Position numbers and translations under genes: made by a program
From: Dichomitus squalens LYAD-421 SS1
Lineage: Eukaryota > Basidiomycota > Agaricomycetes > Polyporales > Polyporaceae
Reading direction: 5' to 3'
Length of the DNA stretch: 33,151 nt
NCBI RefSeq assembly: GCF_000275845.1
Contig: NW_006766883.1
Coordinates: 14,762 to 47,912, forward strand
The notes under the pieces: model-generated
The model's input: only the letters and a program-made list of their open reading frames with translations
Told to the model about the DNA's origin: nothing
Database searches by the model: none
Shown: positions 32,390 to 33,151 of the stretch, one piece after another
How the letters are laid out: every line of letters starts with the position of its first letter
Position numbering within the stretch: the stretch's first letter is position 1

Positions 32390-32648
32390 ACTGCGCTGAC
32401 ACCTTTAGGCTGTAGTACCTTTGCGTTGCGTTTAGCTTGATTTCTGCTCAAGTGCCCCATGCCAACTCACCGATCGACATGTCATAGTGTGGGCTTGTCA
32501 TCCTATTAGTCCCTTACAGCCACCTACCACGTTGTACAGCTGACCACCCAACCATACTATAGTCGATAGTCTTTGTAGTTTAAGGCCTACCATGAGGCAC
32601 GGCCTCGCAGGGCAATAAACGGGATCTAGAAAGAAAGAAAGAAAGACA
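32390..32648. other. Flank of the retrotransposon with an (AGAA)n microsatellite
   Basis: An AGAA run spans 32628-32646 and stops directly before the LTR start. The sequence otherwise holds the upstream region of the minus-strand gene. Confidence 0.6.
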
Positions 32649-33017
32649 TGTTGGAGTTTGGACGGCGAGGCAAGCGTGGTGCGAGCCTCGGCCGTGTTCC
32701 GGGCGGACAGTCTAGTCGCGCCGTTGACGCGTCTTGTCGCGCCTTGTTGCGCTCGCATAAGTTTCACCTTTGTTTTGTTCGTGAATACGACGACTCATTT
32801 GTCTTGTACCGGGAACGTCTTGTCCCAGTAATGTACTTATTCCCTTCGATTTACGTTGGCTCACCTCAGTCCCGCGTACGACGCGTGCTGAGGTGAGTAT
32901 ACGTTTGTTACTTACTTCGTCTACTTATACTGATTAACATCCCGTAGTGATTGTTCTACAGGTACTATTAATACATATCAGTCCCGCGTACGACGCGTGC
33001 TGAGTGATTGTTCTACA
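32649..33017 (+). mobile_element. 5' LTR of a Ty1/copia-type retrotransposon
   Basis: The segment starts TGTTGGAG and ends TTCTACA, the TG...CA form of LTR ends, and is 369 bases long. A primer-binding site follows directly, then about 65 bases later a gag-like start codon on the same strand. The inner half contains a stem-loop block at 32866-32892, an intron at 32893-32947, a block at 32948-32961, a spacer, and a spliced copy of both blocks at 32978-33018. The 5' border rests on the TG motif and could not be checked against the 3' LTR, which is outside the window. Confidence 0.75.
32893..32947 (+). other. Intron inside the right LTR (55 bases)
   Basis: Starts GTGAGTATAC, ends CCCGTAG, and has a branch-point-like CTGATTAAC about 20 bases before the end. 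The downstream copy at 32978-33018 lacks exactly these bases between the same flanking blocks. The 5' splice site touches the base of the E1 stem (CTCAG...CTGAG). Confidence 0.8.
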
Positions 33018-33020
33018 GGT
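32978..33020 (+). repeat. Spliced copy of the right LTR leader blocks (E1'-E2')
   Basis: 27 bases (32978-33004) equal 32866-32892. The next 16 (33005-33020) equal 32948-32963. The joint is exactly the splice junction of the 32893-32947 intron. The spacer before it (32962-32977 plus the shared TCAG) starts GTAC. Confidence 0.92.
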
Positions 33021-33032
33021 TATGAGCCCTGC
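33018..33032 (+). other. Primer-binding site for an initiator tRNA-Met half
   Basis: GTTATGAGCCCTGC (33019-33032) is complementary to the anticodon-arm region GCAGGGCUCAUAAC of yeast-type initiator tRNA-Met, not to the tRNA 3' end. Internal, half-tRNA priming is known for copia-type elements. The site directly follows the LTR end (CA at 33016-33017). Confidence 0.75.
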
Positions 33033-33096
33033 CTCCTAAGGCAGACTTCAGACAATCGAAACTTACCGCTCTCGGCAACCCTTCTCCTTTCCCGAT

Positions 33097-33151
33097 ATGG
33101 CATCTATCAAGTTGAACGACGATGTCGTTCGAGTCCCCAAACTCGACGTCA
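33097..33151 (+). CDS. Start of copia gag polyprotein, cut by the window edge
   Basis: An ATG about 65 bases after the primer-binding site opens MASIKLNDDVVRVPKLDV and runs off the window. Short openings of the type D-x-V-P-K-L are usual at the N-terminus of copia Gag, before the capsid-like domain. Only 18 residues are visible, so the family call rests on the LTR and primer-binding site. Confidence 0.6.
   Translation, partial: MASIKLNDDVVRVPKLDV

Follow-up and report, generated by a model that had tools for sequence, protein, structure and literature searches.

A Copia LTR with a duplicated leader

The stretch of DNA considered here (the window) comprises 33,151 nucleotides of contig NW_006766883.1 (positions 14,762 to 47,912; C1 below) of the fungus Dichomitus squalens LYAD-421 SS1. 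Its right end carries the 5′ long terminal repeat (LTR) of a Copia retrotransposon, in which a putative transcript leader is present twice, once interrupted by a putative intron and once as an exact fusion of the two exons. The LTR occupies 32649–33017 (369 bp; all features mapped in the window lie on the + strand) and has TG...CA ends. It corresponds to C1:47410–47778 (locus L001) and its partner 3′ LTR lies at C1:52484–52852 (L004). The 5-bp target-site duplication AGACA flanks the whole element, before the 5′ LTR (32644–32648) and again behind the 3′ LTR. A primer-binding site (PBS) adjoins the LTR at 33018 (GGTTATGAGCCCTGC); this PBS, GGTTATGAGCCCTGCC (33018–33033), is complementary to the anticodon region of tRNA-Met(CAT), and a tRNA-Met(CAT) gene predicted by ARAGORN at another locus (L093) covers the same stretch. 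The element is presumably primed by a 5′ half-tRNA, as in Drosophila copia. A gag-like frame begins at 33097 (MASIKLNDDVVRVPKLDV) and is cut by the window end at 33151; a relative of the same family (family A, L035) matches the Copia gag domain PF14223 with an E-value of 1.1e-30. A family F locus (L094) gives 6.9e-4 against PF14223, which is below the cut-off, and a 187-aa piece from family A (L038) has no PF14223 match.

U3, the promoter part, spans 32649–32867, with a weak TATA-like TACTTA at −34 of which relatives have better versions; its last bases (CTCACCTC) are complementary to the 5′ splice site that follows. Exon 1 (E1, the first R; 25 nt, 32868–32892) is followed by a predicted 55-nt intron 1 (32893–32947, GTGAGT...CCGTAG as read from the sequence) and by exon 2 (E2; 14 nt, 32948–32961), which ends in CTACAG and is followed by GT. 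An A+T-rich spacer (32962–32978, GTACTATTAATACATAT) lies 3′ of this second 5′ splice site and may contain RNA 3′-end signals. A single variable junction base (N, 32979) comes next; it is C here, T in the sibling L002 and T or A in other subfamilies, and is probably untemplated. Then follow E1′, the second R (32980–33004), which appears to be a complementary DNA (cDNA) copy of E1 and would be the R at the RNA 3′ end, and E2′, or U5 (33005–33018), a likely cDNA copy of E2 whose last G doubles as the first PBS base. Spacer, N, E1′ and E2′ together form an intron-like unit of 57 nt, a putative intron 2 (32962–33018, GTACTA...TTCTACAG). The exact direct repeats in the LTR are 27 nt and 18 nt long, the E2 repeat extends through AG|GT, and the E1–E2 join has a 2-nt AG ambiguity in the window family. 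An Rfam scan of the window gave no matches.

A preliminary description of this LTR had placed intron 1 and E2 where re-reading also finds them. It had E1 begin at 32866 and the fused copy run over 32978–33018; the end of E1 at 32892 and the exactness of the fusion hold, but E1 is now started at 32868, from the probable transcript-start A, and E1′ at 32980 behind the variable base. The extra TC at 32866–32867 matches the second copy by chance, and L002 has T before its second copy.

Six LTR families share the plan

The standard U3-R-U5 plan, with one R in an intron-free LTR, does not describe the window family. E1 occurs twice in all 25 readable LTRs of this family, with GT...AG between E1 and E2. 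These are 25 of 26 matches in the 40.3-Mb genome; the remaining one (L022) is partly masked and was left out of the count. Upstream sequence was also inspected at all 50 sites identical to the 16-nt PBS or differing from it at a single position. The plan is present at 25 of them, two are single-copy relatives and 20 have no such repeat; the remainder are a short LTR with a tRNA-Cys gene (two) and a tRNA-Met gene (one). The 25 plan-bearing loci sort into six families, A to F, whose kinship was judged by LTR comparison and whose similarity is limited to the PBS stretch and matches of ≤11 nt (blastn, one representative LTR each). The preliminary description had suggested looking for the LTR family elsewhere in the genome and had named an assembly artefact as a way in which it could fail. 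Chance or an assembly artefact can be rejected: the plan occurs in six families, at many loci and in both LTRs of one element (L001 and L004). A further way to fail named there, that other members of the family lack the structure, did not come true.

All families but E have two introns. Family E has one, in which E1 is followed by an intron that begins with GT and ends with the AG of E1′, and then by the rest of the leader. Four families (B, C, D and F) have a third exon, such as ATTTTAACA in B, which separates E2′ from the PBS; what fixes the repeat end is therefore AG|GT rather than the PBS. A second LTR with the same plan is present in the window, the 3′ part of a family D copy (284–480, the LTR ending at 480), with E1 at 284–306, intron 1 at 307–362, E2 at 363–379, intron 2 at 380–441 and E3 at 442–480.

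Across all families, 81 two-copy LTRs were read (A 25, B 9, C 7, D 28, E 8, F 4). These counts are lower bounds: only the best candidates of the genome search were scored and family D was read in part (28 two-copy LTRs among 51 pattern matches). The E1–E2 join corresponds to GT...AG ends in every family, and AG|GT marks the 3′ boundary of E2 (or, in family E, of E1) in 79 of the 81; the exceptions are L103, which has AT|GT, and the decayed L121, which was not parsed. Among LTRs with exact copies, the putative intron 2 measures 50–71 nt, compared with 50–58 nt for intron 1.

Exon copies change together

Both exon copies are identical in 72 of the 81 LTRs (A 22, B 9, C 6, D 27, E 6, F 2), or in 71 without L141, where 12 extra nt follow E2′. 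A change in one copy occurs in nine LTRs (L004, L010, L019, L094, L103, L105, L118, L121 and L144), and we read these changes as probable decay after insertion. Over seven family A lineages, the copies within an LTR differ at 0 of 252 nt, while between lineages E1+E2 diverge by 23% and intron 1 by 45%. Four family B lineages give 0 of 197 nt within LTRs, with 16% divergence between lineages in E1+E2 and 32% in intron 1. The sequences show concerted evolution of the copies, which are apparently remade. E2′ tracks changes in E2 and, therefore, RNA or cDNA in which E2 is joined to E3 or to the PBS must exist. The simplest reading is that spacer, E1′ and E2′ are removed as a second intron. The preliminary description implied a single splice; intron 1 stands, but alone it is not enough when E2′ both tracks E2 and abuts the PBS or a third exon. 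In L121 (C28:251850–252540), an old LTR of family F, an insertion of about 480 nt interrupts the spacer.

A shifted splice acceptor is copied

One family D LTR, L140, records a change of splice site. A T to A substitution in intron 1 creates CCTTAG|TAGTCTTG, so that the intron ends as CCTTAGTAG, compared with CCTTTGTAG otherwise. The fused copy of the same LTR reads GAAGA-TAG-TCTTG; the three added nucleotides, TAG, are those predicted by use of the new upstream AG. Neither the intron change nor the TAG insertion occurs in the other 27 family D copies read. Because the new acceptor is reproduced in the copy, the second copy is best derived from spliced RNA. The central claim of the preliminary description, that this copy arose through reverse transcription of spliced RNA while the intron was kept, is strongly supported by the concerted change of the copies, by L140 and by the junction base of the window family.

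The junction base and the probable transcript start

Family A LTRs differ in the base that precedes the second E1, while the one preceding the first E1 is constant, being C in 21 of 21 LTRs from six groups of near-identical sequences. N is variable in all four such groups that hold different insertions, although these groups have few variable columns (3/369, 1/365, 8/365 and 3/329); in one of them, with seven LTRs, N is the sole variable column of 365. The LTR-pair groups L005/L011 and L010/L017 have the same N within each pair. Family E has two to four variable junction bases (AATC, AGTA, GAA, GA). The variable N of family A is as expected if reverse transcriptase (RT) ran off a capped RNA end.

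A TATA-like motif lies exactly at −34 of E1 in 6 of 13 representatives, from families A and D (L005, L009, L023, L024, L026 and L086), and points to the first base of E1 as the transcript start; in family F the check covered only 22 nt upstream. L001, L006 and L110 have a weak TATA-like motif at −34 by eye. Transcription of the window element probably starts at A32868.

Proposed mechanism

These observations very probably reflect a Copia LTR with a spliced leader, in which the product of splicing is written back into the LTR in every round of replication. Transcription would begin at E1. The 5′ leader would then lose two short introns, intron 1 and intron 2 (spacer, E1′ and E2′), which would leave E1-E2-(E3)-PBS. 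Strong-stop cDNA primed by the tRNA-Met half would copy (E3), E2 and E1 up to the cap, often with an extra base added there, and would anneal to E1′, which would act as R at the RNA 3′ end if the poly(A) site lies beyond E1′. Extension from E1′ would copy the spacer, E2, intron 1, E1 and U3 of the 3′ LTR. The new LTR would thus read U3-E1-intron1-E2-spacer-N-E1-E2-(E3) and would be stable over generations, with the intron supplied by the RNA 3′ end and the E1–E2 fusion by the spliced 5′ end. Intron 2 would take its 3′ splice site from the copied exon end (..AG), so that the plan would rebuild itself.

Annealing of the cDNA to the upstream E1 instead of E1′ would lose the intron. Collapsed LTRs without introns do occur, six in family D and three in family E, and the base before E1 is changed in three of these nine compared with none of 59 intact LTRs (Fisher 0.0017). 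Family D by itself gives 2 of 6 collapsed compared with 0 of 51 intact LTRs (p = 0.009). A search of family D for loss of intron 1 alone returned one match, which is the repeat in L141 and not such a form.

The 3′ LTR donor is perhaps masked by pairing with U3, so that only the 5′ leader would be spliced. The last U3 bases before E1 are able to pair with the 5′ splice site (CTCACCTCAG/CTGAGGTGAG in the window LTR), and in none of 16 representatives did more than 13 of 300 U3 shuffles reach the minimum free energy of U3, E1 and intron start. The pairing probability of the splice site alone was matched by 0–17 of 300 shuffles only in families E and A, with L001 as an exception (95); in B, C, D and F it was matched by 29–296 and is not distinctive. 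Folding only suggests masking, and this is a weaker part of the proposal.

Several observations weigh against the proposed mechanism. Families A, B, C and most of D have a weak 5′ splice site in the putative intron 2, lacking G at +5 (GTACTA, GTATTA, GTATAA, GTATAG, GTACAG), and family F has GTCTGC, with C at +3. The junction base varies little in family D (T 26, G 1 and A 1 of 28) and not at all or hardly at all in C (C in 7/7), F (C in 4/4) and B (C in 8/9). No TATA-like match was found by the scan in 7 of the 13 representatives. Within family E, the base before E1 is changed in one of three collapsed compared with none of eight intact LTRs (p = 0.27), the two changed bases in family D are identical (A) and perhaps non-independent, and some collapsed LTRs could come from recombination between direct repeats. 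The 5′ and 3′ LTRs of one element are likewise non-independent samples. L141 (C40:266577–266837, family D), with G as junction base, has a 12-nt tandem repeat in E2′ for which the mechanism does not account.

Alternative explanations

The preliminary description supposed a special strand transfer, for example a jump of spliced strong-stop cDNA to an RNA 3′ end downstream of the intron; in the version considered here, the jump needs no homology and reaches an RNA 3′ end within the spacer. The junction base N and the two to four variable junction bases of family E would suit such a jump. Poly(A) cleavage sites usually scatter, but the spacers are otherwise constant within subfamilies and no poly(A) remnant is visible, and a blind jump is unneeded where E1′ offers homology (R = E1). 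Homology-guided transfer is favoured because the spacers are constant and poly(A) remnants are not visible; we regard the blind jump as unlikely.

A second possibility is that only intron 1 is spliced and that RT sets out from the PBS, copies E2′ and changes over to the homologous upstream E2, skipping E1′ and the spacer. This scheme needs just the well-formed intron 1, and the identity of E2 and E2′ would permit the switch. It does not account for the AG|GT with which the repeat ends in all families, and its failures should leave three copies, of which there are none in the 81 segments read. A check over 500 nt upstream of the 50 PBS loci, covering families B, C, D and F, also found no third copy. 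We consider such template switching improbable.

Still less credible is that RT skips across a hairpin and that the E1–E2 join owes nothing to the spliceosome. E1 does lie in a hairpin more stable than those formed with shuffled U3, and the join of the window family is ambiguous by 2 nt (AG), but GT...AG ends in every family, intron-like lengths and the L140 join that moved to a newly made AG argue for splicing. Tandem duplication of E1–E2 in DNA followed by intron gain in the first copy would give the same static layout in a single copy, yet it predicts neither concerted change, nor the junction base, nor an L140-type transfer, would have to recur in several families and, like an introner-type insertion into one of two copies that then diverge, is rejected as having virtually no chance of being correct because the copies change together and because of L140.

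Other LTRs with the same primer-binding site

The PBS survey also brought up LTRs with other layouts. L032 (C17:219134) is a PBS-bearing LTR with a hairpin (GTGCCTCAGT/ACTGAGGCAC) round an AGTC start and without a duplicated leader; it is possibly a relative without an intron. L042–L046 and similar loci form a further LTR family without the duplication, whose leader contains CTTCTAG|GTGAGT, possibly an unrelated 5′ splice site. At L088 (502–624) and L098 (C45 and C84), an LTR of about 123 bp containing a tRNA-Cys(GCA) gene is followed by the PBS and a family D leader. Nine matches to this LTR occur genome-wide, including two in C79 (C79:78182–78559) that are separated by 134 bp. It resembles a miniature element whose LTR contains a Pol III gene, which we take to be comparable to Cassandra with its 5S rRNA. 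Beyond this genome, a scan of viral contigs with CTCACCTCAGTCCCGC gave three matches, none with the structure and all taken as chance, and one narrow pattern gave no matches in bacterial and archaeal genome contigs.

Implications and comparison with known systems

Retroelements are expected to lose introns when they are copied via RNA, and the LTR plan described here would preserve an intron indefinitely despite such copying. A general intron-keeping route for RNA-copied elements can tentatively be sketched, with somewhat less than even confidence: an intron sits between two copies of R, splicing is confined to the 5′ leader (pairing with U3 masks the donor of the 3′ LTR) and each new LTR receives the spliced leader afresh, which creates a self-templated intron 2. 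The route would span several Copia families and would be kept because expression in such fungi needs introns. In Cryptococcus neoformans, intron removal greatly lowers the mRNA of most genes tested, according to one report (PMC3744415); similar intron-dependent expression would give the elements a reason to keep the intron. Genomic DNA of this kind would reveal spliced leaders as reverse-transcription templates, mark transcript starts to the base and provide a natural record of splicing changes and cap-end additions.

A literature search, with preprints and most subscription papers outside its scope, found no LTR that stores its own spliced leader. Its sole match for an intron in an LTR, the engineered lentiviral vector LTR1, is not a precedent as far as excerpts of that paper go (PMC5542766). 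No description of the plan U3-R-intron-R-U5 in a Copia element was found in the literature searched.

The element resembles Ty1/Copia LTR retrotransposons in its TG...CA LTR, 5-bp target duplication, tRNA-Met PBS and the Copia gag domain of a relative. The standard Ty1/Copia LTR is U3-R-U5 with a single R, whereas the intron here lies between two copies of R and the leader appears to be spliced before reverse transcription. Ogre is also an LTR retrotransposon with an intron and a spliced RNA, but the intron of the window element sits in the LTR. HTLV and foamy viruses have a splice donor in R, and thus a 5′ splice site within the repeated terminal region; in these viruses the genome is the unspliced RNA, and their LTRs are not known to hold a spliced copy. 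Some Penelope-like elements also carry introns through retrotransposition, but they are another element class, with introns in the coding region and no known self-copy of a spliced leader. BARE1 is likewise an LTR retrotransposon with a spliced RNA, which is reported to be a subgenomic Gag mRNA, with a separate RNA class packaged and copied (PMC3735527); in the D. squalens element, by comparison, the spliced leader itself appears to be copied and the intron lies inside the LTR.
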